This document shows, piece after piece, positions 29,182 to 47,491 of a stretch of 64,000 nucleotides of DNA (its first letter is position 1; the number at the start of each line of letters is the position of its first letter). The translations under genes and the position numbers were made by a program. Where the stretch lies: the NCBI RefSeq assembly GCF_003337565.1, contig NZ_QPJL01000002.1, positions 62,001 through 126,000 of the forward strand, read 5' to 3'. This DNA comes from Paracoccus lutimaris (GTDB lineage Bacteria > Pseudomonadota > Alphaproteobacteria > Rhodobacterales > Rhodobacteraceae). The notes under the pieces are model-generated. The model ran no database searches, was not told where the DNA came from, and saw nothing but the letters and a program-made list of their open reading frames with translations.

Positions 29182-30099
29182 CTAGAACTGATAGCGGCGC
29201 AGCCGCGTCTGGATGGCGAACAGATAGAAGCAGACGCCCAGAAGGATGATCCCGAACATGGCCGTGGCGATGGTCGCCCCCATATGCGGGTCGCCGATCT
29301 GCAACTGGAAACCAAAGAAGGTCCGGTAAAGGAACGTCCCCAGGATATCGGTGGCGAAATTCGGCCCGGCCAAGGCCCCCTGCGTCACATAGATCAGGTC
29401 GAAGGCGTTGAAGTTCCCGACAAATGTCAGGACCGAGATGATCCCGATCGAGGGCAGGATCAAGGGCAGCTTGATCTTCCAGAACTGCGCCCAGCCGGTG
29501 ACGCCGTCCATCTCGGCGGCCTCGATCACCTCGTCGGGAATGGACAGCAAGGCGGCATAGATCAGCATCATCGGGATGCCGACGAATTGCCAGACCGAGA
29601 CCAGCGCCAGCGTGGTCAGCGCATATTCTTCCTTGCCCAGCCAGGGCGCGAACAGGGCCTTCAGCCCCACCGCGTCCAGCATGCCGGGCGCAATCCCCCA
29701 GATCGGCGACAGGATCAGCTTCCAGACGAAACCCACGATCACGAATGACAGGATCGTCGGGATAAAGATCGCCGTCCGGTAAAACGCCGCCCCCCGCAAC
29801 CGCGGCGAGGATAACAGCGCCGCCAAGAGCACCCCGATCGGGTTCTGCACCAGCATGTGGATGACGAAGAACCAGGCATTGTTGCCCAGCGCATTCCAGA
29901 ACGCATCGCTCCAGCGCGGATCGCCAAACAGCGTGGCAAAGTTCCGCAAGCCGACAAAGACCCGGTTGCCCTGATCCAGATTGAACAGCGACAGGTTCAG
30001 CGTCCCGAACAGCGGCACGATCATGATGGCGGTATAGACCAGCACCGCGGGCGCAAGAAACACCGCGATATGCCAGCGAATCTGCTTTCGCTGCGCCAT
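29182..30099 (-). CDS. Carbohydrate ABC transporter permease (MalF/UgpA type)
   Basis: This 305-residue CUT1 permease has about six membrane segments. Recognisable are HIAVFLAPAVLVYTAIMIVPL at TM1, the EAA-type loop IPDEVIEAAEMDGVTGWAQFWKIKLPLILP, and the terminal FAIQTRLRRYQF. The ATG at 30099 (MAQRKQIRW) follows a GGAGG site; the longer frame upstream runs through an intergenic repeat. Its 3' end is 7 bp from the next permease start. It forms a heterodimer with the MalG-type subunit. Confidence 0.87.
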   Translation of the reverse strand: MAQRKQIRWHIAVFLAPAVLVYTAIMIVPLFGTLNLSLFNLDQGNRVFVGLRNFATLFGDPRWSDAFWNALGNNAWFFVIHMLVQNPIGVLLAALLSSPRLRGAAFYRTAIFIPTILSFVIVGFVWKLILSPIWGIAPGMLDAVGLKALFAPWLGKEEYALTTLALVSVWQFVGIPMMLIYAALLSIPDEVIEAAEMDGVTGWAQFWKIKLPLILPSIGIISVLTFVGNFNAFDLIYVTQGALAGPNFATDILGTFLYRTFFGFQLQIGDPHMGATIATAMFGIILLGVCFYLFAIQTRLRRYQF

Positions 30100-30108
30100 G
30101 ACGCCTCC

Positions 30109-30189
30109 CTCATTCTTCTTCAGGAAAATATCCTCGGGGGGTGCGGGGGGCGGAAAGCCCCCCGCCATCGCCGGGCCGTCAGGCCCGGC
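30109..30189 (-). repeat. Dispersed intergenic element, copy 2, plus a stable intercistronic hairpin
   Basis: Read on the minus strand, the order is GCCGGGCC/GGCCCGGC hairpin (30170-30189), GCGGGGGGC/GCCCCCCGC hairpin (30143-30165), then the core GGATATTTTCCTGAAGAAGA (30114-30133) ending near 30109. It fills the gap between the binding-protein gene and the first permease. It would act as an mRNA stabiliser or partial terminator, as is common after binding-protein genes, and it shares its core with copies near 6.0, 40.8 and 55.5 kb. Confidence 0.7.
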
Positions 30190-30195
30190 AACAGA

Positions 30196-31455: not shown

Positions 31456-31479
31456 GGTCTTCTCCCTGTGATGGGTTTC

Positions 31480-32382
31480 TCACGAACCCGCTTGATGAAA
31501 TCCTTGCAGAAGCGGCGCCAGATGGCCGCCATTCTGCGAAAGCGCCGCCGTCGCCGCCTCGGGGGTCATGCCCCGCGCCACCAGAACCGCCGGCTTGACC
31601 GCACCGGACACACGCGCCAGCGCCGCCTCGGCCGCGTCGCGGGGCATATCGGCCACCGCCGCGACGATGCGCGCGGCGCGGTCAACCAGCTTGATATTGT
31701 CGGCCACCAGATTGACCATATAGCCGTCATGAATATGGCCCAGCCGCGTCGCCGCCAGAACCGAGACCATGTTCAGCGCCACTTTCTGCGCCGTCGCCGC
31801 CCCCATCCGGGTCGAGCCGGCGACCACCTCGGGCCCGGTCTCGATCAGCACCGAAATATCGGCCAGCCCCAGCAACGCCGAGCCGGGCACATTGGCAAAT
31901 CCCGCCACCGTCACGCCCCGCGCCCGCGCCGCCTCGGCGATGGCCAGCGCATAGGGCGTCCGCCCCGAGGCTGACAGGACCAAAAGCGTGTCCCCCGCCG
32001 CCAGCCCCGCGCGGTCCAGATCGGCCAGGGCCAGCGCCGGGTCATCCTCGACGCTGCCCTTCATGTGCAAAAGCGCATCGGCCCCGCCGGCGAACATCAT
32101 CGGCGTGCGTTCGGGCGCGATGCCGAAGGTGCCGGCCAGTTCCAGACAATCCGCCAGTGCCATCAACCCCGAGGACCCCGCCCCGGCATAGCCCAGCTTG
32201 CCCCCCGCCCGCAGCGAGGCGGCGGCGGCATCGGCCACCCGCTCCAGCGCCGCAATCGCCGGCGTGAGCGCCTTCAGCGCGTCGATCTGCGCCGCCAGCA
32301 GGATCGACAACGCATCCCTGCCGCCAAGGGTATGAAACCCCTCGGCTCCGGGATGGCGTCCCTCGGTGCTGGATTCGGTCAT
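31480..32382 (-). CDS. murQ: N-acetylmuramic acid 6-phosphate etherase (divergent MurQ)
   Basis: This 300-residue SIS-fold protein has GYAGAGSSGLMALADCLELAGTFG, matching the MurQ GAGTSGRLGxxDASECPPTFG region with the catalytic acid Glu conserved. SVEDD aligns with the base Glu, and GAATAQKVALNMVSVLAATRLG with the C-terminal motif. It cleaves the lactyl ether of MurNAc-6-P to GlcNAc-6-P and D-lactate. The N-terminal ESRNP-type motif is degenerate, so it is a diverged member. ATG 32382 follows GGAGGAATC. It is the first gene of the minus-strand uptake operon, facing the nag genes across matched operators. Confidence 0.82.
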   Translation of the reverse strand: MTESSTEGRHPGAEGFHTLGGRDALSILLAAQIDALKALTPAIAALERVADAAAASLRAGGKLGYAGAGSSGLMALADCLELAGTFGIAPERTPMMFAGGADALLHMKGSVEDDPALALADLDRAGLAAGDTLLVLSASGRTPYALAIAEAARARGVTVAGFANVPGSALLGLADISVLIETGPEVVAGSTRMGAATAQKVALNMVSVLAATRLGHIHDGYMVNLVADNIKLVDRAARIVAAVADMPRDAAEAALARVSGAVKPAVLVARGMTPEAATAALSQNGGHLAPLLQGFHQAGS

Positions 32383-32409
32383 GTGATTCCTCCTGTTCGA
32401 TGTATGATG

Positions 32410-32512
32410 CCAAAAGAATACCAATTGTAAAGACATTTCTTGAATCGGCGCATTTGCAGCCATTTTTGCTGGAATTACGAATGATACTTCCCTTTTGGTA
32501 TTCTTTTGGTAT
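32410..32512. promoter_or_regulatory. Paired operators for the divergent amino-sugar operons
   Basis: CCAAAAGAATACCAA (32410-32424) and its exact reverse complement TTGGTATTCTTTTGG (32495-32509) flank the 150-bp divergent gap. The right-hand site extends into a direct repeat of TTTTGGTAT (32493-32501 and 32504-32512, 11-bp period). A left-hand partner reads similarly on the other strand. Each copy sits close to the start of one operon. By position, the likely binder is the GntR/HutC-type regulator encoded at 33365. Confidence 0.75.
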
Positions 32513-32534
32513 CGTGCAAGCAAAAGGGGGCATC

Positions 32535-33368
32535 ATGACGCTTTTTCTGGCTGTTGACGGTGGGGGTACGGGATGCCGGGCGGCGCTGGCCGATGCGCAG
32601 GGGCGCATTCTGGGTCAGGGCGCGGCCGGTCCCGCCAATATCTCGATCGAGACGGAAAGCGCCTGCGCCAATATCCTTAGCGCCGCCCGCGCCGCGCTTC
32701 ATGCCGCCGGTCAGGGCCATCTGGACGATCTGGACGCCGTGCTGGGGCTGGCGGGGGCCAATGTCACCGCCTCGGCGCGGCGCCTGCAGGCGATGCTGCC
32801 CTTTCGCCGCACGCGCATCGTCACCGACGTGGTCACCGCCACGGCAGGCGCCCTGCAAAGCGGCGATGGCATCGTCGCCGCCATGGGCACCGGCTCGGTC
32901 TTTGCGGTGCAGGCGGGCGGCCAGTTCCGCCAATATGGCGGGCGCGGCTTTCTGCTGGGCGACGAAGGGGGCGGCGCGGTTCTGGGCCGCGCCCTGCTCT
33001 CTGACGCCCTGCGGGCCGAGGACGGCTTTGCCCCGATGACGCCCCTGTTGCAGGAGGTGCTGACCGAACTGGGCGGGGTCGAGGGCGTGATCTCGTTCGG
33101 GCTGCGCGCCAAGCCCGTCGAGTTTGGCAGCTTTGCCCCCCGCATCGTCGAAAGCGCGGACCCGGCGGCGCGGCGCATCTTTGACGCCGCGGTCGCGCAG
33201 ATCCGCGATATGATCGGGATGCTGCAACAGGGCCGCGACCTGCCGGTGATCTTTCTGGGCGGGCTGGGCGGCCATTACGCGAAACGGCTGGCGGGGCTTT
33301 GGGACATTCGCGCGCCCTTGGGCAGCGGGCTGGACGGGGCGCTGTTTCTGGCGCGGCAGGAGGGATGA
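32535..33368 (+). CDS. nagK: BadF/BadG-type ATPase, probable N-acetylglucosamine kinase
   Basis: This 277-residue protein has the ASKHA fold: phosphate-1 motif FLAVDGGGTGCRAALAD, connect-1 NISIE, phosphate-2 AAMGTGSVFAV, RGFLLGDEGGG, and the C-terminal FLGGLGGHYAKRL adenosine motif. This is the BadF/BadG/BcrA/BcrD group, which contains GlcNAc and glucosamine kinases. Given its neighbours it most likely phosphorylates GlcNAc (or MurNAc) entering through the ABC importer. The ATG at 32535 follows AAGGGGG. It is first in the plus-strand operon and overlaps the regulator start. Confidence 0.8.
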   Translation: MTLFLAVDGGGTGCRAALADAQGRILGQGAAGPANISIETESACANILSAARAALHAAGQGHLDDLDAVLGLAGANVTASARRLQAMLPFRRTRIVTDVVTATAGALQSGDGIVAAMGTGSVFAVQAGGQFRQYGGRGFLLGDEGGGAVLGRALLSDALRAEDGFAPMTPLLQEVLTELGGVEGVISFGLRAKPVEFGSFAPRIVESADPAARRIFDAAVAQIRDMIGMLQQGRDLPVIFLGGLGGHYAKRLAGLWDIRAPLGSGLDGALFLARQEG

Positions 33369-34138
33369 TGGGCGAAATCTTCACCCCCGGCGCCTTCGAG
33401 GAAAGCGGCGGCGGGCCGCTTTACCTGCAATTGCACCGGCTGATCGCCGAGGCCATCGCCTCGGGGCAGCTCAAGCCCGGCGACAGCCTGCCGTCCGAGC
33501 GGGAACTGGCGGTGATGACGGGCCTGTCGCGCGTCACCGTGCGCAAGGGCGTGGCGGAACTGGTCAGCTCGGGGCAGCTCGTGCAGCGGCGCGGCTCGGG
33601 CACCTTCGTTGCGCCCAAGGTCGAAAAGCTGGAACAGGCGCTGTCGCTTCTGACCTCGTTCACCGAGGACATGGAGCGGCGCGGGCGCAATGTCGAAAGC
33701 CGCTGGATCGCGCGCGGCCTGCATGCCCCCGCCCCCGAGGAAGTCATGGCGCTGGGGCTGGGCGCGGGCGAGCGCGTGGCGCGGCTGGAACGGGTGCGCA
33801 GCTCGGACGGGGTGCCCTTGGCGATCGAGCGCGCCTCGCTCTCGCAGCGCATCCTGCCCGATCCCGAACAGGTCACCGATTCGCTTTACGCCATGCTGGA
33901 AAGCCGGGGCCAGCGCCCGGTGCGCGCCGTGCAGCGCATCTCGGCCGCCAATCTGAACGCCAAGGATGCGGAATTGCTGGACGTGGCGCCCGGCGTCGCC
34001 GGGCTTCGGATCGAACGCATCTCCTACCTGCCCTCGGGCAAGGTGGTCGAATTCACCCGCTCACTTTATCGCGGCGATGCCTATGATTTCGCCGTGGAAC
34101 TGAAACTCGCGCCCGATGGCGAAAGGAATCCCCAATGA
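33365..34138 (+). CDS. GntR-family (HutC subfamily) transcriptional regulator of the amino-sugar genes
   Basis: This 257-residue protein has an N-terminal winged helix (PLYLQLHRLIAEAI, then LPSERELAVMTGLSRVTVRKGVAELVSSGQLVQRRGSGTFV). A UTRA effector domain follows (RWIARGLHAP, LERVRSSDGVPLAIERASL, VEFTRSLYRGDAYDFAVEL). UTRA domains of NagR-like proteins bind GlcNAc-6-P or GlcN-6-P. Two tandem ATGs (33365, 33368) overlap the kinase stop. It sits inside the operon it probably represses, so it would be autoregulated through the 32410-32512 sites. Confidence 0.87.
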   Translation: MMGEIFTPGAFEESGGGPLYLQLHRLIAEAIASGQLKPGDSLPSERELAVMTGLSRVTVRKGVAELVSSGQLVQRRGSGTFVAPKVEKLEQALSLLTSFTEDMERRGRNVESRWIARGLHAPAPEEVMALGLGAGERVARLERVRSSDGVPLAIERASLSQRILPDPEQVTDSLYAMLESRGQRPVRAVQRISAANLNAKDAELLDVAPGVAGLRIERISYLPSGKVVEFTRSLYRGDAYDFAVELKLAPDGERNPQ

Positions 34139-35160
34139 GCCAGACCCACATGGCCCGCGAAGTGGCCGAAATCCCGCAGGCCGCCGCCCGTTTTCTGGAG
34201 CAGTCGCGTCAGGCGGTGCTGGATGCGGCGGCGGCGCTGAAACGCAAGGATCCCGACCTGATCGTGACCGTGGCGCGCGGATCCTCGGACCATGCCGCGA
34301 CCTATCTGAAATACGCCTTCGAGCTTGAGGCGGGCATACCCATCGCCTCGGTCGGGCCGTCCATCGCCTCGATCTATCGCCGGCCCCTGCGGCTGGGCAA
34401 GGCGGCCTGCATCGGCATTTCGCAATCGGGCCGCAGCCCCGACGGGGTCGAGATGATGCGCGCCTCGGGTCAGGGGGGCGCGCTTTCGATCGCCATCACC
34501 AATTTCGAGGACAGCGCCATGGCGCAGGTCTCGGCCCACTGCCTGCCCCTGCAGGCGGGCGAGGAGAAAAGCGTCGCCGCCACCAAGACCTTTATCTGTT
34601 CGGTGCTGGCGGGCCTGTCCCTGCTGGCGGAATGGGCCAGCGATCACGCCTTGCAGGACGCCTTGGCCGCGCTGCCCGAGGCACTGGCCCAGGCGATCGA
34701 GCTGGACTGGTCGCCCTTGTCGGCGCGGCTGGCGCGGGCCAATTCCGCCTATGTGCTGGGGCGCGGCCCGGGCTTTGCCATCGCCTGCGAATCGGCGCTG
34801 AAATTCAAGGAAACCAGCGGCATCCATGCCGAGGCCTATTCGGCGGCCGAGGTTCTGCACGGCCCCTCGGCCATCGTGCAGGCGAATTTCCCGGTGCTGG
34901 CGCTGGGGATCGAGGACGCCGCCCTGCCGCAACTGCAGGCCACGGCCGAGCGGCTGGCGGCGCAGGGCGCGGATGTCTTTGTCACCGGCGCCGAGGTGGC
35001 GGGCGCGGTCACGCTGCCCTCGGTCCGCGGGCTGCATCCGCTGGTCGCGCCGCTGGTCATGCAGGCGGGCTTTTACGCCTTTATCGAGGGGCTGGCGCGG
35101 CGGCGCGGCTTCGACCCCGACACGCCCCCGCATCTGCGCAAGGTGACGGAGACGGTCTGA
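34135..35160 (+). CDS. SIS-domain sugar isomerase/deaminase, probable glucosamine-6-phosphate deaminase (NagB-II type)
   Basis: This 341-residue protein has two SIS domains resembling the isomerase half of GlmS without the glutaminase domain. Landmarks are VARGSSDHAATYLKYAFE, GISQSGRSPDG, LQAGEEKSVAATKTF, LGRGPGFAIACESALKFKETSGIHAEAYSAAEVLHGP and the terminal Lys-containing LRKVTETV. NagB-II enzymes with this architecture convert GlcN-6-P to fructose-6-P and ammonia. No classical nagB is present, so this fills that step. Start and stop overlap both neighbours (ATGA, TGATG). Confidence 0.83.
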   Translation: MSQTHMAREVAEIPQAAARFLEQSRQAVLDAAAALKRKDPDLIVTVARGSSDHAATYLKYAFELEAGIPIASVGPSIASIYRRPLRLGKAACIGISQSGRSPDGVEMMRASGQGGALSIAITNFEDSAMAQVSAHCLPLQAGEEKSVAATKTFICSVLAGLSLLAEWASDHALQDALAALPEALAQAIELDWSPLSARLARANSAYVLGRGPGFAIACESALKFKETSGIHAEAYSAAEVLHGPSAIVQANFPVLALGIEDAALPQLQATAERLAAQGADVFVTGAEVAGAVTLPSVRGLHPLVAPLVMQAGFYAFIEGLARRRGFDPDTPPHLRKVTETV

Positions 35161-36278
35161 TGGCGCGCGAGATCCTGACCGGGGCGCGGATCTTTGACGG
35201 CAGCCGCCTGATCGACCGCCATGCGCTGGTGATCGAGGATGGCCATATCGCCGCCATCCTGCCCGAGGACAAGGTGCCCCGGGCCGGGGCACGCACGGTG
35301 CCGGGGATCCTTGCCCCGGCCTTCCTTGACCTGCAGGTGAATGGCGGCGGCGGAATCATGGTCGACGGCGCCACCGATCTGGCGGCGCTGCGCCATATCT
35401 GCGCCGCCCATCGCAGCCTGGGCACGGGAGGTATCCTGCCCACATTGATCACCGACACGCCGGAGGCGACCGCCAATGTCATCGCCGCCGGGATTGCCGC
35501 TGCGGATGCCGGTGTCCCCGGCTTCCTTGGCCTGCATCTGGAAGGCCCGCATCTCGACCCGCGCCGCAAGGGCGCCCATGATCCGGCGCTGATCCGGCCC
35601 ATGACCGGTGATGACCTTGCCCGCCTGTGCGAGGCCGCGCGCCGCCTGCCCGTGCTGATGGTGACGCTGGCCCCGGAATCGGCGAGCCCGCAGCAGATCG
35701 CGGCGCTTGCGGGTGCCGGCGCCGTGGTCAGCCTTGGCCACAGCGATTGCAGCTATGACGAGGCCCGCGCGGCATTTGAGGCCGGCGCGCGCTGCGCCAC
35801 CCATCTTTTCAACGCCATGAGCCAGATCGGCCATCGCGCGCCGGGTCTGGCCGGGGCGATCCTGTCGGGACAGGCCGGGGCCGGGCTGATCGCGGATGGC
35901 ATCCACGTCCATCCGGCGGTGATGGGGCTGGCGCTGGCCGCGCGGCCAGAGGGGATTTTCCTTGTCACCGATTGCATGGCATTCGCCGGCACCGACCTGA
36001 CCGAGATGGAACTGAACGGCCGGCAGGTGCTGCGCCGCGACGGTCGGCTGACGCTGGCCGATGGCACGCTGGCCGGGGCCGACCTGACCTTGCCGCAGGC
36101 GATTGCCACGCTGGTTTCGCAGGTCGGCATCGCGCCCGAACGCGCGCTGGCCATGGCGACGCTGGAGCCGGCACGGCTGATCGGGTTGCAGGACAGCCAT
36201 GGCAGGCTGGTGCCCGGCCGCAAGGCGGATCTGGTGCGGCTGGGACCGGATTTCCAGCTGATCGAACACCGGCTTTAG
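35160..36278 (+). CDS. nagA: N-acetylglucosamine-6-phosphate deacetylase
   Basis: This 372-residue amidohydrolase has the NagA metal and substrate motifs: LDLQVNGGGG, GLHLEGPHLDPRRKGAH (metal Glu and substrate loop), SLGHSDCS (His), CATHLFNAMSQ (His and amide loop), IADGIHVHP, and LVTDCMAFAG (catalytic Asp). It removes the acetyl group of GlcNAc-6-P to give GlcN-6-P, feeding the preceding deaminase. It is the last gene of the plus-strand operon, with its ATG overlapping the upstream stop and a GC-rich hairpin after it. Confidence 0.93.
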   Translation: MAREILTGARIFDGSRLIDRHALVIEDGHIAAILPEDKVPRAGARTVPGILAPAFLDLQVNGGGGIMVDGATDLAALRHICAAHRSLGTGGILPTLITDTPEATANVIAAGIAAADAGVPGFLGLHLEGPHLDPRRKGAHDPALIRPMTGDDLARLCEAARRLPVLMVTLAPESASPQQIAALAGAGAVVSLGHSDCSYDEARAAFEAGARCATHLFNAMSQIGHRAPGLAGAILSGQAGAGLIADGIHVHPAVMGLALAARPEGIFLVTDCMAFAGTDLTEMELNGRQVLRRDGRLTLADGTLAGADLTLPQAIATLVSQVGIAPERALAMATLEPARLIGLQDSHGRLVPGRKADLVRLGPDFQLIEHRL

Positions 36279-36283
36279 GCGGC

Positions 36284-36304
36284 CCGCCCGGATCTGCCGG
36301 GCGG
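36284..36304 (+). terminator. GC-rich hairpin after nagA
   Basis: CCGCCCGG (36284-36291) and CCGGGCGG (36297-36304) form a perfect 8-bp stem with a 5-base loop, 6 bp beyond the nagA stop. No T tract follows, so termination may be weak or factor-dependent. Confidence 0.5.
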
Positions 36305-36369
36305 CGACCCGCGGATATCATGGATGCGGCCCCGGGGGGCTGTCGGTCGCGCGGTCGGGATGCGCGCCG

Positions 36370-36705
36370 CTAATCCACTGGACGAATCAGCTTTTTCTCA
36401 AGCACGCGCAGCACTGCCGGCAGGTCGTGCCCGCGCTTCAGGACGCGCCCATCCATGCCGATCACCGCATATTGACCCTGCGCGGCCCGCAGTCGAGGCC
36501 GCTTTTCGATGCGGTAAAGCGGATTCTCGGCCGCACGGCGAAAGACGGAAAAGACCGCCATCTCGCGCAGGAAGGACATCGCATAGTCGCGCCATTCACC
36601 CGCAGCGACCATCCGGCCGTAAAGCGACAGGATCATGCCCAGCTCGGCCCGGTCGAAGGCCACACGGTCGTGGTCTGGGGAAATGCCGAAGAACGGGGTG
36701 CTCAT
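36370..36705 (-). CDS. DUF2794 family protein
   Basis: This 111-residue protein has the strongly conserved DUF2794 core ILSLYGRMVAAGEWRDYAMSFLREMAVFSVFRRAAENPLYRIEKRP, followed by KRGHDLPAVLRVLEKKL. The family is nearly confined to Alphaproteobacteria and has no known function. The start at ATG 36705 (MSTPFFGIS) fits the family length. It converges on nagA with about 90 bp between. The protein is soluble, basic at its C-terminus and without a signal peptide. Confidence 0.82.
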   Translation of the reverse strand: MSTPFFGISPDHDRVAFDRAELGMILSLYGRMVAAGEWRDYAMSFLREMAVFSVFRRAAENPLYRIEKRPRLRAAQGQYAVIGMDGRVLKRGHDLPAVLRVLEKKLIRPVD

Positions 36706-37019
36706 GACATGATGGTGACATTGCCCGCAGGTCCGATCAACGAAAATTCGCGGCCAGGCCGCCACCGGCGCGAACGGCAGGACGATCACATTCCCCTTGG
36801 CGGGAGCTGTACCGTAAGGTTCGGCGATGCTTTGCCCATCGCCGTCATTTCAGCTATCCTTATCTGGTCTAATCAATGAGATCTGACTAGTTTTCTTGCC
36901 GGATTGTGACGTGGCGTCATTGAGTGCAGGGTTATTAACATCACCACCCTTAGAATGCTCATCAACCGAACAGGTGAACCATCTGCTTGCCGCCATTCCT
37001 GCCACTGAACAGGGCCGCC
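36706..37019. promoter_or_regulatory. Divergent 314-bp gap with an inverted repeat, upstream of the condensation-domain gene
   Basis: No gene is supported here. The gap is locally AT-rich from about 36850 to 36970. The clearest signal is TGACG-TGG-CGTCA (36907-36919), an inverted repeat with 5-bp arms about 100 bp before the condensation-domain start. A TTAGAAT half-site (36950-36956) follows. Either could bind an iron-responsive regulator if the downstream gene serves siderophore synthesis, but neither matches a full Fur, Irr or RirA consensus that I can verify. Confidence 0.35.
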
Positions 37020-38339
37020 ATGAACACTCGTGCCGATCAGTTCGACCGCTCGACGCCCCTCACCGAAGCACAGGAGGTGTATTGGCGCATGCAGGTCAGG
37101 GATCCGGGCAATCCGATCCTGAATACCGGCCTGTATCTTGAGCTGCTGGGCGCGCTGGACAGCCAGGCGATCATGCAGGCCGTCACCCGCACCATCGCCG
37201 ATATGCCGACGCTGTCGCTGCGCTTTCTTGACCCCGGCGACGGGCCACGGCAGGCGCCCGGACCGCCATTGATGCTGGGATTCGCCGATCTGTCGGCGCA
37301 GCCCGACGCCGAGAAGCAGGCTCTTGAACTGATGCAGGCCGACAGCCGGCGCCCGCTGCGGCTGGCCGAAGAGCCCGCGGCGGCGCTGACCTTTTTCGTC
37401 ATCGATCTGGAACGGCATTTCCTTTACCTGCGCATCCATCATCTGGCCATCGACTGCTATGGCATGGTGCTGGTGGCGAACCGCATCGCCGCCCATTACG
37501 CGGCACTGGTCCAGGACGCACCCCTGCCCGAGCCGCCGCATCCGCTGTCTCTGGCCATTGATGAGGATGCCGCCTATCGCAACTCGGCCCGCCGCGTCGA
37601 GGACCGGAACTGGTGGCACAGCCAGTTGGCCCACCTGCCCAAGGCCATCGGCCCTGCCGTCAGCGGCCATGATTACCTGCGCGCGCGCCGCGAACTGCCG
37701 GCCGGCCTGCTCGAGACGCTGACCGCCTTCGCACAGACGCACCGGCTGATCTGGGCCGATGTCCTGCGGGCGCTCGCGGGCGCCTATCTGGCGCGGCGAA
37801 CCGGCGGCGAGGCGGTGATCGGTCTGCCCTATCCGGCGCGCTTGGGCCAGCAGATGGCGGCGGTGCCCTGCACCATCGCCAATGTTTTGCCCTATTACCT
37901 GCGTCTGGACGAGGATGCGCCCCTGCCCGACTGGCTGGCGCGGCAATCGGCGCGCATGGTGCAGGGCCGCCATCACGGGCGCTATCGCAGCGAGGTCTTG
38001 CGCCGCGAACTGGGCCTGACCGGCAGGGCAAGGCTATTCGGACCTGTCGTCAAGGTGCAGCCCTTTGAAAAGCCGCCAGAGTTTCCGGGCCTGAGCTGCC
38101 GGCTGCACATTCTGGGCGCGGGTGCGGTCGATGACCTGATCCTGACCTTTCGCGGCGAACCGCCCTCGGGCATGGTCTTCGATCTGGACGGGAATCCGGC
38201 GCTTTACTCGATCGAGGAACTGCACGAGCACGGCGACCGCATCGAAGCCTTTCTTGACGCAGCGCTGCATGCCGACCGGCTGGCGCGCATTCCTGCCGAT
38301 GATGGCAGGGCCGCCACCTCCGCCGAGGCGCGGCGCTAA
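37020..38339 (+). CDS. Free-standing NRPS condensation domain protein (VibH/EntF-like)
   Basis: This 439-residue protein is a single condensation domain with the active-site motif HHLAIDCYG (residues 140-148; HHxxxD). An N-terminal PLTEAQEVYWRMQ segment is typical of C domains. Late motifs HGRYRSEVLRRELG, LFGPVVKVQPFE and GAGAVDDLILTFRGEP resemble the catechol-siderophore C domains of EntF and the stand-alone VibH, which is about the same size. VibH-type enzymes acylate a free polyamine with carrier-bound 2,3-dihydroxybenzoate. No adenylation or carrier-protein gene is adjacent. Function is inferred. The stop overlaps the convergent DUF1178 stop by 4 bp. Confidence 0.8.
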   Translation: MNTRADQFDRSTPLTEAQEVYWRMQVRDPGNPILNTGLYLELLGALDSQAIMQAVTRTIADMPTLSLRFLDPGDGPRQAPGPPLMLGFADLSAQPDAEKQALELMQADSRRPLRLAEEPAAALTFFVIDLERHFLYLRIHHLAIDCYGMVLVANRIAAHYAALVQDAPLPEPPHPLSLAIDEDAAYRNSARRVEDRNWWHSQLAHLPKAIGPAVSGHDYLRARRELPAGLLETLTAFAQTHRLIWADVLRALAGAYLARRTGGEAVIGLPYPARLGQQMAAVPCTIANVLPYYLRLDEDAPLPDWLARQSARMVQGRHHGRYRSEVLRRELGLTGRARLFGPVVKVQPFEKPPEFPGLSCRLHILGAGAVDDLILTFRGEPPSGMVFDLDGNPALYSIEELHEHGDRIEAFLDAALHADRLARIPADDGRAATSAEARR

Positions 38340-38764
38340 TTCGCCCGCTGCCGCGCGCGGAAGGGCAAGGGGGCAACGGGAATGCCGTCCTCGATCAGCT
38401 TGCGGGCATCTTCCAGCCTGGCCTCGCCATGGATGGCGCGCTCGGGAGCCTCGCCCTCATGCATGGCGCGGGCCTCGGCGGCAAAGGACATGCCGACATA
38501 ATCCGAATTCGCCTCGACATGGCGGCGCAGCTTCTCCAGCGCCGCCTCATGCCCGTCGCGGGGGGTATGCAGATCGGTGGTGCCGGGTTCATCCCCGCCG
38601 CCATGGGCGACGCGCGGCGCCATCAGCGCCTTTTCCACCTGGACCGAGCCGCAGATCGCACAGCTGACCTGACCCGCCGCGCGCAGGGTCTCGAACCCGT
38701 CCGAGGACCGGAACCAGCCATCGAAATCATGGCCTTGGTCGCAACGCAGGGAATAGCGGATCAT
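38336..38764 (-). CDS. DUF1178 family protein
   Basis: This 142-residue protein begins MIRYSLRCDQGHDFDGWFRSSDGFETL and has CAICGSVQVEKALMAPRV, a two-Cys-pair zinc-ribbon-like pattern (C-x-x-GH and C-x2-C) characteristic of DUF1178. A C-terminal helical part contains SDYVGMSFAAEARAMHEGEAPERAIHGEA, also diagnostic. The function is unknown; the family is common in Alpha- and Betaproteobacteria. It precedes waaA by only 16 bp in the opposite reading sense of transcription order, so it may be co-transcribed from further upstream or have its own promoter within that region. Confidence 0.83.
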   Translation of the reverse strand: MIRYSLRCDQGHDFDGWFRSSDGFETLRAAGQVSCAICGSVQVEKALMAPRVAHGGGDEPGTTDLHTPRDGHEAALEKLRRHVEANSDYVGMSFAAEARAMHEGEAPERAIHGEARLEDARKLIEDGIPVAPLPFRARQRAN

Positions 38765-38779
38765 GGCGGCTCCTTTCCG

Positions 38780-40003
38780 CTAAATATCGGCCCCTGCGGG
38801 TTTTTGCGCAAGGGCGGGTCGCGCAAGCGTGCGAATCCGCGCGATCAGCGCCGCCGGATCGCCGGCCCGCGCCATCAACAGCTTGCGCGCCGCCAGCCCC
38901 ATGGCGCGCTGGCGCCCAGCGTCCGCTGCCAGATCGGCCAGCAGGCCGGGCAGGGTTTCAGCCGTCGCGGCCAGCGCTGCGCCCCCGCTGTCCAGATCGG
39001 CATAATCCCCGGCATGATTTGCGACATGCGGCCCATGCAGGATGGCACAGCGCCAGGCGGCCGGCTCCCACGGGGTATGGCCGCCATGATCGGCGAATGA
39101 TCCGCCGGTGACGCAAATCCCCGCCGCCTGATACCACAGCGCCATTTCGCCCAGCGTGTCGGCCAGCAGGACAGGTGCCTCCAGACCGGCGCCCTGACTG
39201 CGGCGGGCGGCCTTCAGCCCCCGTGCAGCGATCAGACCCACCACCGCATCACCGCGCTCGGGGTGGCGGGGCGCAAGGATCAGCCGCAGATCGGGCAAGA
39301 CCGCGCGGGCCGCCAGAAAGGCGTCCAGCATCACGGCATCCTCGCCCTCATGGGTCGAGGCCGCCAGCACCGTCCGCGCCCGGTCCGGCCCGTCAGCGCC
39401 CGGCATGACCTGCGCCGGACCCAGCAGCTTCAGGTTCAGCCGCGCGCTCAGCGCCGCCTCGGGCAGACCCAGTGCCAGAAGCCGCGCCTCGCTGCCCTGA
39501 TCCTGCGCCGACAGCGCGTCGATCCGCGCCAGCATCGGCCCGATCAGCCCCGGCAGCCGTCCCCAGCGCCGGGCCGAGCGTTCCGACATCCGCGCCCCCA
39601 CCACGACCTGCGCCACGCCCCGCACCTCAGCCATGGCCGAGCGGTTGGGCCACAGCTCGTTCTCGACCGTGACCATCACCGTCGGCTCGACCCGGTCCAG
39701 AAACCGCCCCACCGCCTGCGGCACATCCAGGGGCGCAAGGGCGCAAGGCATGCCCAGCCGCCGCGCCAGATCGCGCCCGGTGCGGCTGTTCGTGGTCACC
39801 GTCAGGGGAAAGGCGCGCGCCAGTTCCTCGGCCAGCACCCGGACCGAGGTCAGCTCACCGACGCTGGCCGCATGCAGCCAGATGCCGCCGGGCGCGACCT
39901 GTGGACCGGTCAGCGCCAAACGCTCGCGCCAGTCCGGCCCGGCCAGCGGCGCGGCCAGACCCAGCGCCGCCCCCGCCAGCGCCGTGGCCCCGCGCCAGAT
40001 CAC
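38780..40003 (-). CDS. waaA: 3-deoxy-D-manno-octulosonic acid (Kdo) transferase family glycosyltransferase
   Basis: This 407-residue protein has the WaaA N-terminal Kdo-transferase domain. Landmarks are IWLHAASVGELTSVRVLAEEL, TVTTNSRTGRDLARR, and ENELWPN with the catalytic Glu in the ExELWP motif. The C-terminal GT-B half has VLAASTHEGEDAVMLDAF, LILAPRHPERGD, and GGSFADHGGHTPWEPAA. It transfers Kdo from CMP-Kdo to lipid IVA at the cytosolic face of the inner membrane. The ATG overlaps the rpe stop (40000-40003). The short membrane-anchor N-terminus is typical. Confidence 0.9.
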   Translation of the reverse strand: MIWRGATALAGAALGLAAPLAGPDWRERLALTGPQVAPGGIWLHAASVGELTSVRVLAEELARAFPLTVTTNSRTGRDLARRLGMPCALAPLDVPQAVGRFLDRVEPTVMVTVENELWPNRSAMAEVRGVAQVVVGARMSERSARRWGRLPGLIGPMLARIDALSAQDQGSEARLLALGLPEAALSARLNLKLLGPAQVMPGADGPDRARTVLAASTHEGEDAVMLDAFLAARAVLPDLRLILAPRHPERGDAVVGLIAARGLKAARRSQGAGLEAPVLLADTLGEMALWYQAAGICVTGGSFADHGGHTPWEPAAWRCAILHGPHVANHAGDYADLDSGGAALAATAETLPGLLADLAADAGRQRAMGLAARKLLMARAGDPAALIARIRTLARPALAQKPAGADI

Positions 40004-40692
40004 CGCAGCGCGGCCTCGGCAGCCTCGCGGATGGCGCGGATGTTCTCGCCATAAGGCGCGCTGTTCGACACCGAGCCGCCCCGGAACACGGCAGAGCCCG
40101 CAACCAGCACATCGGCCCCCGCCGCCACCACCAAAGGCGCCGTCACCGGATCGACGCCGCCGTCGATCTCGATATGGATGGGCCGGTCGCCGATCATGGC
40201 GCGCAGCTCGCGCACCTTCTCGATCTGGCTCATGATGAATTTCTGCCCGCCGAAACCCGGATTGACCGTCATCACGCAGATCAGATCGATGTCATCCAAA
40301 AGCGGCCGCGCCGCCTCGGCCGGCGTACCGGGGTTCAGCGCCAGCCCGGCCTTGGCACCCGCGCCACGAATGGCCTGCAAGGTGCGGTGGATATGGGGCC
40401 CGGCCTCGACATGGGCGGTGATGATATCGGCGCCGGCCTCGGCAAAGGCGGCGATATAGGGATCGACCGGCGCGATCATCAGATGCACGTCCATGACGCC
40501 CCGGATATGCGGCCGGATCGCCTTGCAGGTGGCGGGACCAAAGGTGATGTTGGGGACGAAATGGCCGTCCATCACATCGACATGGACCCAATCCGCGCCC
40601 TGATCCTCGATGGCGCGGCATTCCTGCCCGAAATTGGCGAAATCGGCGGAAAGGATCGAGGGGGCGATCTTGATCTTGCGATCGAATGTCAT
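40000..40692 (-). CDS. rpe: Ribulose-phosphate 3-epimerase
   Basis: This 230-residue TIM barrel has IAPSILSADFANFGQE, DWVHVDVMDGHFVPNITFGP, MDVHLMI, MTVNPGFGGQKFI, EIDGGVDP and AGSAVFRG, all standard Rpe motifs with the metal and acid-base residues. It interconverts ribulose-5-P and xylulose-5-P in the pentose phosphate and Calvin pathways. ATG 40692 follows GGAGCC. It forms a translationally coupled pair with waaA downstream and is divergent from hslO across a 270-bp gap holding a dispersed repeat. Confidence 0.96.
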   Translation of the reverse strand: MTFDRKIKIAPSILSADFANFGQECRAIEDQGADWVHVDVMDGHFVPNITFGPATCKAIRPHIRGVMDVHLMIAPVDPYIAAFAEAGADIITAHVEAGPHIHRTLQAIRGAGAKAGLALNPGTPAEAARPLLDDIDLICVMTVNPGFGGQKFIMSQIEKVRELRAMIGDRPIHIEIDGGVDPVTAPLVVAAGADVLVAGSAVFRGGSVSNSAPYGENIRAIREAAEAALR

Positions 40693-40777
40693 GGCAGGCT
40701 CCTTCAGGGCCGGACCGGCCCGCGCTGGCCACCCGTTACCGCCGATGCCCCGCAGCCGTCAACAAGGACGGCCCGTC

Positions 40778-40869
40778 CCATTCTTTCATGTAGAAATATC
40801 CCGCGGGGCTGTCCATCGAGTCCGCCATCGGTCCGAGGACCGATGGGCAGGGGGGGGCGCGAAGCCCCC
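40778..40869 (-). repeat. Dispersed intergenic element, copy 3, with two hairpins
   Basis: On the minus strand a GCCCCC-type hairpin (40853-40869) comes first. A perfect 10-bp stem CCATCGGTCC/GGACCGATGG (40825-40834, 40837-40846) follows, then the core GATATTTCTACATGAAAGAA (40780-40799). It lies in the rpe/hslO divergent gap, so here it is not downstream of a gene on either side. The copies at 6.0, 30.1 and 55.5 kb share the core and the preceding GC hairpin. Confidence 0.7.
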
Positions 40870-40962
40870 GGCTTCCCCCCTTGGGGTTTCGCGCAGCACG
40901 CCTATATTGGGTGCCAAGGCGCAAGGCCCTCCGGCCCCGCGCATCCGCATTCCGAAGGATCC

Positions 40963-42003
40963 ATGATGACCAAGACAAAGGACGCTTCCTGGGACGACAC
41001 CGTCCTGCCCTTTCAGCTTGAGCAATCTGGCACGCGCGGCCGCGTCGGCCGCCTTGGCCACACGCTGGAACATATCCTGTCGCGCCACGACTATCCGGTC
41101 GCGGTCAGCGCCATGGTGGCCGAACTGACCACATTGACCGCGCTGATCGGCCAGACCGTCAAGCTGCGCTGGAAGCTTTCGCTGCAAGTTCGCGGCAACG
41201 GCGCCATCCGCACCATCGCCGCCGATTACTACGCCCCCGAGACCGAGGGTGCCCCCGCGCGCATGCGCGCCTGGGCCAGCTTCGATGCCGAGCGTCTGCA
41301 AGAAGGCATCTCGGGCTTTGACCAGCTGGGTCAGGGCTATTTCGCGGTGCTGATCGACCAGGGCGAGGGCACGACGCCTTATCAGGGCATGACGCCTCTG
41401 GCCGGCGGCTCGCTGGCGAGCTGCGCCCAGACCTATTTCGAACAGTCCGAGCAGCTGCCAACCAGGTTCGAGCTGACCGTCGGGCGCGCGCAGCTGCCCG
41501 GCCATCAGGACGAGCATTGGCGCGCCGGCGGCATCATGCTGCAAACCCTGCCCGCCGCGGCCCATGTCGCGCCCGAAACCGGGGATGACCCGCTGCAGAC
41601 CGCCGACATCCTGCAAGGCGCCGAATCCGAGGACTGGACCCGCAGCACCACGCTGATGGCCACGGTCGAGGCGATGGAGCTGGTCGACCCGAACCTGCCG
41701 CTGCCGAACCTGGTCTTCCGCCTTTTCCACGAAGAGGAACCGGTCTCGTTCGAACGTCAGGACATCCATTTCGGCTGTTCCTGCAGCCCAGACCGGGTGC
41801 GCGGCACGCTTGCGATCTATTCGGCCAAGGACATTGCCCACATGACCACGCCCGAGGGTATCGTCACCGCCGATTGCCAGTTCTGCGGCGCGCATTACGA
41901 ATTCGACCCGCAAAGCCTCGGCTTTGAGGCGACCGTGGATGCCGAGGGCAATCCCCTGCCCCCGAAACCCGCAAAGGGCGCCGAGAACCGGGCCGCGCTT
42001 TGA
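40963..42003 (+). CDS. hslO: Redox-regulated holdase chaperone Hsp33
   Basis: This protein of about 346 residues has the Hsp33 N-terminal domain (DDTVLPFQLEQSG, GRVGRLGHTLEHIL, QTVKLRWKLSLQVRGNG). The C-terminal zinc switch has Cys272 and Cys274 (CSC) and Cys305 and Cys308 (CQFC). Under oxidative stress the cysteines form disulphides, zinc is released and the protein becomes an active holdase. Two tandem ATGs (40963, 40966) are possible starts after GAAGGAT. The C-terminal tail after the CxxC motif is longer than in E. coli. Its stop overlaps the TTG start of the NUDIX gene. Confidence 0.93.
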   Translation: MMTKTKDASWDDTVLPFQLEQSGTRGRVGRLGHTLEHILSRHDYPVAVSAMVAELTTLTALIGQTVKLRWKLSLQVRGNGAIRTIAADYYAPETEGAPARMRAWASFDAERLQEGISGFDQLGQGYFAVLIDQGEGTTPYQGMTPLAGGSLASCAQTYFEQSEQLPTRFELTVGRAQLPGHQDEHWRAGGIMLQTLPAAAHVAPETGDDPLQTADILQGAESEDWTRSTTLMATVEAMELVDPNLPLPNLVFRLFHEEEPVSFERQDIHFGCSCSPDRVRGTLAIYSAKDIAHMTTPEGIVTADCQFCGAHYEFDPQSLGFEATVDAEGNPLPPKPAKGAENRAAL

Positions 42004-42587
42004 CCCGGCATGCCCGGGAACAACTGATACGGGCCCTGTCGCAAGCGACGGGGCCCTCGTCCGATTTCGACTTTGGCGACAGCCCGCAGGTGCCGGTCAC
42101 GCCGCGCCCGGCGGGGGTTCTCGCGGCCTTTGACGCGGCTGACGGGCGGCTGATCCTGACCAAGCGCGCCAGTTCCCTGCGCCACCATCCCGGCCAGATC
42201 GCACTGCCGGGCGGCAAGGTCGACCCCTCGGACGCAGACGTCACCGCCGCCGCCCTGCGCGAGGCGCGCGAGGAAATCGGCCTTGATCCGGCACAGGTCG
42301 AGGTGCTGGGCACCATGCCCGCCCATCACACCGTCACCGGCTTCGACATGACCCCGGTTCTGGCACTGGTTCATGGGCCCTTCACCCCGACCCCCGAGGC
42401 CGGAGAGGTCGAGGAGGTCTTTACCGTCCCCTTTTCCCATATCGCCGATCCGGCGAATTTCCGCGTCACCGGCCGGATCTGGCGCGGCAGCCGCCGGAAC
42501 TATTATATTGCCCCTTACGGCCCCTATTATATCTGGGGCGCCACCGCGCGCGTCCTGCACTCGCTTGCATTAAGGCTTTCCGCATGA
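42000..42587 (+). CDS. CoA pyrophosphatase-type NUDIX hydrolase (NudL-like)
   Basis: This 195-residue protein has the UPF0035/CoA-diphosphatase signature LTKRASSLRHHPGQIALPGGK immediately before a Nudix box ending LREAREEIGL. It would split CoA into phosphopantetheine and 3',5'-ADP. The start is TTG at 42000, overlapping the hslO stop (TTGA); the first downstream ATG would remove part of the conserved fold. It ends in an ATGA overlap with the CCA-enzyme gene, so hslO to the methyltransferase form one coupled series. Confidence 0.85.
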   Translation: MTRHAREQLIRALSQATGPSSDFDFGDSPQVPVTPRPAGVLAAFDAADGRLILTKRASSLRHHPGQIALPGGKVDPSDADVTAAALREAREEIGLDPAQVEVLGTMPAHHTVTGFDMTPVLALVHGPFTPTPEAGEVEEVFTVPFSHIADPANFRVTGRIWRGSRRNYYIAPYGPYYIWGATARVLHSLALRLSA

Positions 42588-43774
42588 CCCGGCAGACCGT
42601 CGCCCTTCCCGATGACCCGGCCCTGAAACAGGTGCTTTCGGCGCTTTCTGCCGAGGGCGCCCAGGCGCTGGTCGTCGGCGGCGCGGTCAGGAACGCGCTT
42701 CTGGGCGAGCCGATCTCGGATATCGACATCGCCACCTCGGCCCGCCCCGACGAGACCATCCGTCTGGCCGAGGCCGCCGGGCTGCGCAGCGTGCCCACCG
42801 GCTTTGACCATGGCACCGTCACCGTCATCGCCCATGGCCGCGGCTATGAGGTGACCAGCTTTCGCCGCGACGTTGAAACCGATGGCCGCCACGCCGTCGT
42901 CGCCTATTCCGACAGCCTTGAGGACGACGCCCGCCGCCGCGATTTCACCATGAACGCGCTTTACGCCACGGCGGATGGCCGGGTTCTGGACCCGGTCGGC
43001 GGGCTTTCGGACCTTGCCGCGCGCAAGCTGCGCTTTGTCGGCGACGCCCGCGCCCGCATCACCGAGGATTACCTGCGCATCCTGCGCTTTTTCCGTTTTC
43101 TGGCCTGGTACGGGCGCGAGGCCGACATGCAGGCGCTTGCCGCCTGCCGCGAATTGCGCGCCGGGCTGAACGGCATCTCGAAAGAGCGTATCGGCCACGA
43201 AATCCGCAAGCTTCTGACCGCACCCGACCCGACCCAGGCCGTGGCCTTCATGGCCGAGGCAGGCGTACTGCCCATGGTCCTGCCCGGCGCCGACGCGACC
43301 GACCTTGCCGAGCTGATCGAATCCGAGCAGGACTTCGGCACCGGCGCCCTGCCCCGCTGGCCGCGCCGCCTTGCGCTGATGGGCGCCGATGACGCCGCCA
43401 ATGCCCTGCGCCTGACGCGGGACGAGGCGCGGATGCAGGCACAGCTGGCCGAGGCGCAGCGCATGCCCCCGCCCGCCGCCGCCTATCGCTTTGGCCGCGC
43501 GGTCGCCGCGCAATCGGTGCTGATCCGCGCCGCCCATGGCAAGGCGCCGCCCTTTGGCTGGTGCCACGGCATTGCCCGCGCCGCCGAGGCAAAGTTCCCG
43601 CTTGCTGCCGCCGATCTGGTCGCCGATCTGACCGGTGCCGCCCTTGGGCGGGCGCTGCGCCATGCGGAATCGGCCTGGATCGACAGCGATTTCACCCTGA
43701 CGCGCACGGAATTGCTGGCGCTGGCCCGCAGGCCCGTCACGGATGACGCCACCGGAAGCCCGGGCGATGCATAG
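42584..43774 (+). CDS. cca: CCA tRNA nucleotidyltransferase / poly(A) polymerase family protein
   Basis: This 396-residue class II nucleotidyltransferase has VVGGAVRNALLGEPISDIDIATSARPDE, with the GG...DxD catalytic signature, followed by VTSFRRDVETDGRHA (template Arg/Asp motif) and LEDDARRRDFTMNALYA. The neck helix RILRFFRFLAWYG and a C-terminal helical body complete it. It adds or repairs the CCA end of tRNAs; poly(A) polymerase activity cannot be ruled out, but alphaproteobacterial members of this length are normally CCA enzymes. It overlaps its upstream neighbour by 4 bp and the ABC exporter start by 8. Confidence 0.88.
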   Translation: MTRQTVALPDDPALKQVLSALSAEGAQALVVGGAVRNALLGEPISDIDIATSARPDETIRLAEAAGLRSVPTGFDHGTVTVIAHGRGYEVTSFRRDVETDGRHAVVAYSDSLEDDARRRDFTMNALYATADGRVLDPVGGLSDLAARKLRFVGDARARITEDYLRILRFFRFLAWYGREADMQALAACRELRAGLNGISKERIGHEIRKLLTAPDPTQAVAFMAEAGVLPMVLPGADATDLAELIESEQDFGTGALPRWPRRLALMGADDAANALRLTRDEARMQAQLAEAQRMPPPAAAYRFGRAVAAQSVLIRAAHGKAPPFGWCHGIARAAEAKFPLAAADLVADLTGAALGRALRHAESAWIDSDFTLTRTELLALARRPVTDDATGSPGDA

Positions 43775-45626
43775 ACTGTTTGCGCGCATGATCGACGCCT
43801 TCCGGCCGGCGGATGGCCCGCCGCCGCATACGCTGCTGGCCTTTTTCCGCTGGTGCCTGTCGGGCGCCTGGCCGGGACTTGGCTTTGCCGCCTTCACCTC
43901 GGCGCTTGGCGGGGTCACGGATGTGGCCTCGGCGGTGCTGCTGGGGGCGGTGGTCGATGCCGTCGTCTCGACGCCCGTGGATCGGATCTGGGCCGATCAG
44001 GGCTGGCTGATCCTGGGCTTTACCGCGTTTTTTCTGGTGATCCGTCCGGCCATCGTCGGCCTGTCCACCGCCAGTTCCAGCGTCATCATCAACCCCAATA
44101 TCCTGCCCTTGGTGCTGTCGCGGCTGCATCGCTGGACCATGGGCCATGCGGTCACCTTTTTCGACAACGATTTCGCCGGCCGCATCGCGCAGAAGCAGAT
44201 GCAGACCGCGCGGGCGGTGACCGAGGTCGCCTCGGAATTCGTCAATGTGGTGACTTTCGCGCTGGCCTCGGTGATCGGCTCGGCGGCGTTTCTGGTCTCG
44301 GTCGATGGCTGGGGGGCGCTGGCGCTGATCCTGTGGCTTGTCGCCTATATCCTGCTGATCCGCTTTTTCATGCCGCGCATCCGCAGCCGCTCGGCCCGGC
44401 GTGCCTCGGCGCGGGCGATGATCACCGGGCAGGTCGTCGACACCATCACCAATATCAAGACCGTCAAGCTCTTCGCCCATGCCGAATACGAGGACCGCGT
44501 CGCGCTTGGCGCCATGGCCGGCTTTCGCGAACGCGCGCTGGATTTCGGCCGCGTCAGCACATGGTTCCGGCTGTCGCTGATGGTCGTCGCCGGCGCCCTG
44601 CCGGTCATTCTGGTCGGCGGCGCGATCCTGTTGTGGCAGCAGGGGCAGGCCAGCGCCGGCGATATCGCCGCCTCGGGCGCCATTGCCATGCGGCTGGCGC
44701 AGATGACCGGCTTTGTCAGCATGGCGCTGATGGGGGTCTGGGGCTCGATCGGCGAGGTCGAGGACGGCATGAAGACCCTCGCGCCGCCCCATGCCCTGAC
44801 CGACGCCCCCGATGCCGAGGTGCTGGGCCGCGTTCAGGGCCGTATCGATTACGACCATGTCGATTTCGCCTATGGCCGCGGCGACGGTCAGGGCGGCATC
44901 CACGATCTGGACCTGCATATCGCACCGGGCGAGAAACTGGGCATTGTCGGTGCCTCGGGGGCGGGGAAATCGACCATGGTGTCGCTGCTGTTGCGGCTTT
45001 ACGACGTCGAGGGCGGCGCGCTCAGCATCGACGGCCACGACCTGCGGCGGGTGACCGAGGAAAGCCTGCGCCGCAATATCGCCATGGTCACGCAGGAAAC
45101 CGCCATGTTCAACCGCTCGGCGCGCGAGAATATTCTTTACGGCCGGCCCGACGCCACCGAGGACGAGATCATCGCCGCCGCAAAAGCCGCCGAGGCGCAT
45201 GATTTCATCCTTGGCCTGCGCGATCATGCCGGCCGCGTGGGCTATGACGCGCATCTGGGCGAGCGCGGCGTCAAGCTGTCGGGCGGCCAGCGCCAGCGCA
45301 TCGCGCTGGCCCGCGCGCTTCTGAAGGACGCGCCGATCCTCGTGCTGGACGAGGCCACAAGCGCGCTGGACAGCGAGGTCGAATCGCAGGTGCAGGAGGC
45401 GCTGCGCCGCGCCATGCGCGGCAAGACGGTGCTGGCCATCGCGCATCGCCTCTCGACCATTGCCGAGCTGGACCGCATCGTCGTGCTGGAGGCCGGGCGC
45501 ATCGTCGAACAGGGCAGCCATGCCGAGTTGCTGGCGCAGGGCGGCACCTATGCGCGCTACTGGAACCGCCAGTCCGGCGGCTTTCTGGGCATCGAGGATG
45601 ACGATACCTCCGAGGCGGCAGAATGA
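43767..45626 (+). CDS. ABC exporter, fused membrane and ATPase domains
   Basis: This protein of about 619 residues has an N-terminal six-helix exporter membrane domain and a C-terminal ATPase. The ATPase has Walker A GASGAGKST, Q-loop VTQETAMFN, signature [14 protein letters not shown], Walker B ILVLDEATSALD and switch IAHRLSTI. It resembles the alphaproteobacterial heavy-metal or multidrug ABCB-type exporters that act as homodimers. The substrate is unknown. ATG 43767 has a GGAAG site; ATG 43743 in the same frame would add eight residues. It overlaps the methyltransferase start by 4 bp. Confidence 0.88.
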   Translation: MHRLFARMIDAFRPADGPPPHTLLAFFRWCLSGAWPGLGFAAFTSALGGVTDVASAVLLGAVVDAVVSTPVDRIWADQGWLILGFTAFFLVIRPAIVGLSTASSSVIINPNILPLVLSRLHRWTMGHAVTFFDNDFAGRIAQKQMQTARAVTEVASEFVNVVTFALASVIGSAAFLVSVDGWGALALILWLVAYILLIRFFMPRIRSRSARRASARAMITGQVVDTITNIKTVKLFAHAEYEDRVALGAMAGFRERALDFGRVSTWFRLSLMVVAGALPVILVGGAILLWQQGQASAGDIAASGAIAMRLAQMTGFVSMALMGVWGSIGEVEDGMKTLAPPHALTDAPDAEVLGRVQGRIDYDHVDFAYGRGDGQGGIHDLDLHIAPGEKLGIVGASGAGKSTMVSLLLRLYDVEGGALSIDGHDLRRVTEESLRRNIAMVTQETAMFNRSARENILYGRPDATEDEIIAAAKAAEAHDFILGLRDHAGRVGYDAHLGERGVKLSGGQRQRIALARALLKDAPILVLDEATSALDSEVESQVQEALRRAMRGKTVLAIAHRLSTIAELDRIVVLEAGRIVEQGSHAELLAQGGTYARYWNRQSGGFLGIEDDDTSEAAE

Positions 45627-47437: not shown

Positions 47438-47491
47438 AACCTGTGCCCGGGGGCCGCAACCGGCCTCCCCACCACAGTCCCAGACATGACA

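Follow-up and report, generated by a model that had tools for sequence, protein, structure and literature searches.

According to PMC13251462, Paracoccus denitrificans PD1222 makes parabactin and brucebactin and also enterobactin, and its entF gene is distant from the dhb genes. In 2021, PMC7962358 described both the gene cluster for parabactin and the amide synthase belonging to it as unidentified, and HHIxxDG is the signature reported there for amide synthases. Among the papers listed from the limited collection of literature that we searched, none concerns truncation of entF in Paracoccus. The gene described here shares with the amide synthases VibH and SchH a stand-alone condensation (C) domain of about 440 residues in a DHB-making genome, and a free amine is likely its acceptor too; it differs from them in lying on the other side of the C-domain tree, in lacking HHIxxDG and the residues of VibH positions G131 and N335, and in being unlinked to the DHB genes. 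With the EntF-like synthetase of Paracoccus it has in common a C domain that is 63-66% identical in 17 congeners, the chromosomal spot and the motif HHLAIDxYG, but the adenylation (A), carrier (PCP) and thioesterase (TE) domains are missing, the uptake and esterase genes are gone, and Gly146 is replaced by Cys, Asn345 by Lys, and Met285 and Met287 by Thr and Ala. Like the OaaC-type C domains of fatty acid amide synthesis, as presented in PMC13142362, it is free-standing and departs from Gly at the residue after the catalytic Asp; theirs, in contrast, is mostly Ser or Ala rather than Cys, and they are closest to starter C domains and have their own ligase and ACP genes linked in the OAA cluster.

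The window, by which we mean the whole 64,000-nucleotide stretch of Paracoccus lutimaris DNA that was analysed, corresponds to C2:62001-126000 of a 4.2-Mb draft genome in 92 contigs (99.99% complete). The features of the locus are as follows, in window positions.

35157 to 36278, plus strand: nagA-like ORF, the left flank in this genome.
36370 to 36789, minus strand: DUF2794 ORF, which is conserved on the left of the entF locus, from tblastn and from Pfam on a congener's copy.
36883 to 36914, plus strand: possible degenerate copy, weak, of the promoter-like block seen upstream of the congeners' entF, 137 bp before the ATG (15 of 32 letters, ungapped).
37020 to 38339, plus strand: gene of the stand-alone condensation domain (439 aa, EntF type), from translation, Pfam and tree.
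37437 to 37463, plus strand: active-site motif HHLAIDCYG, residues 140-148, with His141 and Asp145 kept and Gly146 changed to Cys (the VibH G131 position).
37872 to 37880, plus strand: Thr285-Ile-Ala287, from the alignment; Met285 and Met287 in 36/36 other EntF-type rows, position 287 being that of VibH V276.
38052 to 38054, plus strand: Lys345, from the alignment; Asn in 36/36 other EntF-type and 36/36 VibH-type rows, at the VibH N335 position.
38283 to 38339, plus strand: C-terminal tail, aligned with the synthetases' C-A linker and stopping before the adenylation domain, from an alignment of the window protein, its MAG relative and 16 synthetases.
38336 to 38764, minus strand: FmdB-type zinc-ribbon ORF, conserved right neighbour of the entF locus.
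38780 to 40003, minus strand: waaA-like ORF, right flank.
40000 to 40692, minus strand: rpe-like ORF, right flank.

The gene names nagA, FmdB, waaA, rpe and FecCD, here and below, are presumptive. Translation of positions 37020-38339 on the plus strand gives 439 residues followed by a stop, and the ATG at 37020 is backed by the start MNTRAD, which is conserved in the MAG relative. The protein matches the Condensation family PF00668 over residues 12-416 (E 5.8e-37; 127.9 bits against a curated cut-off of 30.6), a full-length match that covers positions 5-434 of the 456-position profile, and has neither an adenylation nor a carrier domain attached. HGRYR, FGPVVKVQPFE and GAVDD are all found in it, so that the initial annotation of this DNA, which had described a single 439-residue condensation domain with HHLAIDCYG and these late motifs, is borne out by the translation and the Pfam match. 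In place of the catalytic motif HHxxxDG, the window and MAG copies both have HHLAIDC, with both His residues and the Asp present and the Gly replaced by Cys. Among solved structures compared by sequence the best matches are C domains (7c1h, 175 bits; VibH 1L5A, 144 bits; E. coli EntF, 109.5 bits), and the likeness to both VibH and EntF that had been noted before is thus real. The best NCBIfam profile is that of MxcG (NF038078; 264 bits over the C domain), with the EntF profile second at 132 bits; the MxcG profile, however, describes a 1442-residue synthetase with a cut-off of 2300 bits, and the window gene matches its C part only. A two-sequence structure model of the protein reached a pLDDT of 34.5, too low to be usable, and Rfam gave no match in 36200-38800. 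A plasmid collection contains 196 matching records, all below 60% identity to the window protein; among the best 25 of these the annotated ones are NRPS-type genes, and several are without annotation.

The genus sample comprised 125 genomes, this one included, of which 68 gave a hit (E <= 0.001) when searched with the window protein. The closest relative, 75-76% identical, comes from a Paracoccus MAG (G124), in which a likewise truncated gene occupies the corresponding locus; its contig agrees with the MAG record JAGPGI010000205 without a difference over 3285 bases. The next relatives are found in 17 genomes at 63-66% identity, and in 16 of these the match lies inside an open frame of at least 1295 aa; in the remaining one, G146, the frame is of 481 aa and the A-PCP-TE part lies next to it. 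(In this one-contig genome the VibH-type and entF genes, C1:1271769-1273024 and 1873560-1874855, both seem split into separate frames, by true breakage or by sequencing error.) A contig-end fragment in G075, 67% identical over 203 residues, was excluded from the count of 17, since such a fragment does not reveal the layout of its gene. Pfam analysis of two synthetases, that of G011, which belongs to the 17, and that of the more distant G026, gave the order C-A-PCP-TE in both, and the A-domain code reads DVWHFSL at 23/23 loci examined, with the full code DVWHFSLVD recorded at four; this is the EntF serine code. A wider family sample of 394 genomes contains 13 with a match at E <= 1e-60, namely this genome, 11 with the match in frames of 1292-1381 aa, and G296. 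This last genome, from outside the genus, has a 39% relative in a 647-aa frame (G296:C2:73527-74711), perhaps another shortened EntF-type protein.

Comparison of the locus by tblastn with the A-PCP-TE part, DUF2794 and cytochrome b561, over the 17 congeners of the clade described below, reveals an EntF-like synthetase at the same spot, after DUF2794, in all 17 (63-66% identity). The DUF2794 and cytochrome b561 ORFs stand ahead of the synthetase in every case; downstream of it lie an esterase in 16/17 and FecB and FecCD genes in 15/17, the remaining stretches ending earlier, and FmdB follows the cluster in 13/17, the other four stretches ending short of the FmdB point. Pfam matches in G011 support the assignment of the esterase, the FecB-type binding protein, cytochrome b561 and DUF2794. 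This genome and the MAG, by comparison, have in common the order DUF2794 - C domain - FmdB - waaA - rpe. The window protein's tail halts ahead of the A-domain start that is conserved in the 16 aligned synthetases, and the MAG's tail is shorter. The gene has an EntF-branch C domain at the entF locus, and of the EntF layout C-A-PCP-TE with a serine-type A domain it lacks the A-PCP-TE part. Relocation of that part within the genome was ruled out: no orthologue was found elsewhere in it, the best match, at 42%, being to a formyltransferase-A-luciferase-carrier protein. An assembly break was ruled out as the cause of the short gene, which lies inside a contig of 297,880 bases and has the same layout in a second assembly.

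The tree placed 80 domains, 76 from these loci and four from PDB chains. The window gene and its MAG relative form a pair (100/100) nested among EntF C domains in a clade of 19 rows (100/99), within an EntF side that is itself well separated (100/99) from a VibH side made up of VibH 1L5A and 36 rows, the C11 gene of this genome among them (100/99); VibH and the other PDB rows were flagged as long branches that may be joined falsely, so that the depth of the tree is less certain than the position of the window gene within its clade. Because synteny, the tree and the ending of the tail in the C-A linker agree, an origin by truncation of entF is supported, and the window gene would be the C domain surviving from an EntF-like enterobactin synthetase whose other domains were lost. 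Since the substitutions described below and the state of the locus are common to both genomes, we favour one early event: most simply, the truncation and the loss of the cluster took place in an ancestor common to at least one other Paracoccus, an argument that spans two genomes, one of them a MAG of 71% completeness. The initial annotation had called the gene detached from any cluster. Only the C domain is indeed left here, but in the relatives the cluster occupies exactly this locus, from which it was lost in the present genome.

The initial annotation had further proposed that the gene is VibH-like and possibly serves in parabactin synthesis. PF00668 regions at E <= 0.001 number two in the genome, the window gene and C11:92895-93959, both stand-alone C domains. 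The C11 gene (tree row C11:92661-93956; 449 aa from the chosen start) has the motif HHIALDGYG, and its best match is VibH 1L5A at 236 bits, against 144 bits for the window gene. Adjoining it are genes for a DHB-AMP ligase (870.7 bits, cut-off 783), 2,3-dihydro-DHB dehydrogenase, isochorismate synthase and isochorismatase, and a small ORF of the carrier-protein family is also beside it. The DHB biosynthesis genes for which a search had been advised are thus present, with ligase and aryl carrier, as in a parabactin pathway. The stretch as a whole (L009:8638-14682, G000:C11), with its DHB genes, stand-alone aryl carrier ORF and VibH-type amide synthase, likely encodes a bis-DHB-polyamine siderophore.

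That the window gene is itself a VibH-like DHB-polyamine amide synthase, for parabactin or bis-DHB-spermidine, draws on its stand-alone nature, its fitting size (439 aa, a single domain), the DHB genes in the genome and the higher single-sequence score to VibH than to E. coli EntF. We nevertheless consider this quite improbable. The tree excludes the gene from the VibH side, where VibH, itself a long branch, groups with the 36 VibH-type rows and where the C11 gene is found instead; HHIxxDG is lacking (HHLAIDC here; HHI in 31/36 VibH-type rows), as are the residues of VibH positions G131, V276 and N335; and a VibH-type gene already sits with the DHB genes. Orthology with VibH was ruled out on the tree, the motif and the presence of that gene, despite the 144 bits to VibH. 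As to parabactin, the third PF00668 region that the oxazoline step would need is missing, and because no oxazoline heterocyclisation synthetase was found in the 92-contig draft (PF00668, E <= 0.001), canonical parabactin synthesis in this genome is unlikely, and with it the role first suggested.

A PF00668 search of 20 congeners brought up a further gene with a partial match, over about profile positions 36-330, in G078, G096, G102, G116 and G143 (192-330 in G143), and different extra PF00668 genes in G082 and G100. The gene of G102 (L144:7033-12753, G102:C1) is VibF-like, with three PF00668 stretches, an A domain and a carrier, and FecCD, periplasmic-binding and ABC genes adjoin it; it is a candidate parabactin synthetase. 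Text patterns for Cy motifs and for the A-domain code gave no match in this synthetase. The PF00668 search found no such VibF-like gene in the window's genome.

A gene stripped of its partner domains could be a decaying, functionless leftover of entF that is open by chance. The adjacent domains and the transport genes are gone, the invariant active-site Gly is lost, and a promoter-like block is barely recognisable in the window. A block of TTGACTA type, possibly a promoter with an iron-responsive site, is conserved upstream of entF in 17/17 congeners, 136-178 bp before the matched C-domain start and with 20 to 32 of 32 letters, and the MAG copy has 19 letters 138 bp before the start (MAG L083:340). 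Six more distant entF loci score only 14-17 letters. The block was not found at these loci, at the C11 DHB genes or among the window's best eight places. The 15/32 letters of the window copy are reached or exceeded at 189 of 63,969 plus-strand places, itself included, so that by ungapped score it is indistinguishable from chance and amounts to a hint of a promoter at most. Placement of the block as an Iron-Rhodo-box was attempted and set aside, the text of PMC4618611 that we consulted giving no consensus letters for comparison.

The pattern of substitution speaks against a leftover. Between the window and MAG genes dN/dS is 0.283 (bootstrap 0.21-0.37) at a dS of 0.545, or 0.295 with another alignment. 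This value, even at its upper bound, is in the range of C domains borne by synthetases (median 0.36 over 305 EntF-type pairs with dS 0.35-0.8), and the VibH-type pair of the same two genomes gives 0.279; the flanking genes are more constrained (FmdB 0.11, rpe 0.05). The two proteins align free of gaps over their first 428 residues, with a single 9-residue gap in the tail, and both keep the catalytic His and Asp. Uniform-rate neutral simulation produced about seven stops per lineage and no stop-free pair in 400. Had there been two independent recent truncations, dN/dS would mostly reflect the synthetase phase. The mean dN to 13 outgroups is raised in the stand-alone pair (0.41 and 0.39, against 0.27-0.32 in the 17 synthetase C domains), as is dN relative to the VibH-type gene (1.72, against 0.33-1.32 among the other pairs listed, with VibH-type identity >0.72); a raised non-synonymous rate counts in favour of decay and fits a partly relaxed constraint as well. 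Judged by its substitutions, the pair is under purifying selection and, since dN/dS is 0.28, no ordinary pseudogene; a simple pseudogene was rejected on dN/dS, the intact alignment and the simulation, and we regard a functionless relic as unlikely, while some weight must be left to it.

Which residues changed in the stand-alone copies bears on what the protein might do. At least 35 of the 36 other EntF-type domains agree at 120 positions, of which 104 are kept in both stand-alone copies and 16 are not; nine changes are identical in both (Q38L, G146C, T153A, F219Y, M285T, M287A, N345K, D350E and E388D), and the catalytic residues His141 and Asp145 are intact in each. Gly146 and Asn345 are invariant in the 36 VibH-type rows too and align with VibH G131 and N335, which are listed as VibH acceptor determinants in PMC6996325. 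The chance that two given positions both fall among nine of 120 is about 0.005, these positions having been looked up after the list was seen. Replacement of the residue after the catalytic Asp is compatible with activity, because Ser and Ala are common there in free-standing C domains: among 127 that use free amines the residue is Ser in 42%, Ala in 36% and Gly in 17%, according to PMC13142362.

The changes at Met285 and Met287 may mean that the donor is no longer DHB. Acylation with another carrier-bound acid, for instance from a fatty acyl-ACP, would suit Met285Thr and Met287Ala, which are found in both copies just before a conserved Asn-x-Leu-Pro stretch, and free-standing C domains that use fatty acyl-ACP exist, as the same source describes (PMC13142362). 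We think such a switch of donor distinctly unlikely. None of the ORFs listed around the window gene (about 30000-48000) was recognised, on inspection or from its similarities, as encoding a ligase or a carrier, and a DHB carrier, the ancestral kind of partner, is still encoded. An ABC exporter-like ORF at 43743-45626, recognised by eye, bears no mark of a siderophore gene.

On another contig, C6, a 1560-aa protein (L039:2749-8054, G000:C6) combines a formyltransferase, an A domain into which a luciferase-like monooxygenase is inserted, and a carrier, with a phosphopantetheinyl transferase gene adjoining. This NRPS-like protein has no C domain, and the only PF00668 region in the genome apart from the window gene is that of C11, so the window protein might act on it in trans as the missing C domain. 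No genetic link between the two was seen, and we give this very little credence.

We favour, with moderate confidence, a maintained free-standing acyltransferase that was born by domain loss from an EntF-like synthetase, with DHB as its likely aryl donor and a changed acceptor. On this view the entF locus lost the three downstream domains (A, carrier and thioesterase) together with the esterase and uptake genes, after which purifying selection has maintained the remaining C domain as an enzyme of its own. It would still draw its aryl group, in all likelihood DHB, from the stand-alone carrier protein encoded on C11, the kind of partner that is ancestral for EntF C domains. As in VibH, the group would go to a free amine or amino acid of small size, there being no downstream carrier to receive it; His141 would serve in the transfer as in C domains generally. 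The acceptor site, and perhaps the donor pocket, would differ from those of both EntF and VibH, because residues there that are otherwise invariant have been replaced. The VibH-type amide synthase that the genome already has on C11 is a point against this explanation, as is the higher single-sequence score of the window gene to VibH than to E. coli EntF.

More speculatively, stand-alone amide synthases may have arisen more than once, on the VibH branch and independently here by the stripping of EntF to its C domain; loss of enterobactin would then have gone together with replacement of the acceptor site, and the cell would now make an undescribed DHB-amide.

The locus would be a natural experiment in NRPS evolution, in which a multidomain synthetase was cut to one domain and that domain was then kept by selection. 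The analysis also tells apart three Paracoccus siderophore traits that might readily be mistaken for one another: entF, the VibH-type amide synthase, and the VibF-like candidate parabactin synthetase. If the protein is active, it would show how free-standing amide synthases can be born, would offer naturally occurring replacements in the acceptor site, where VibH has G131 and N335, and may point to an unknown catechol product in Paracoccus.
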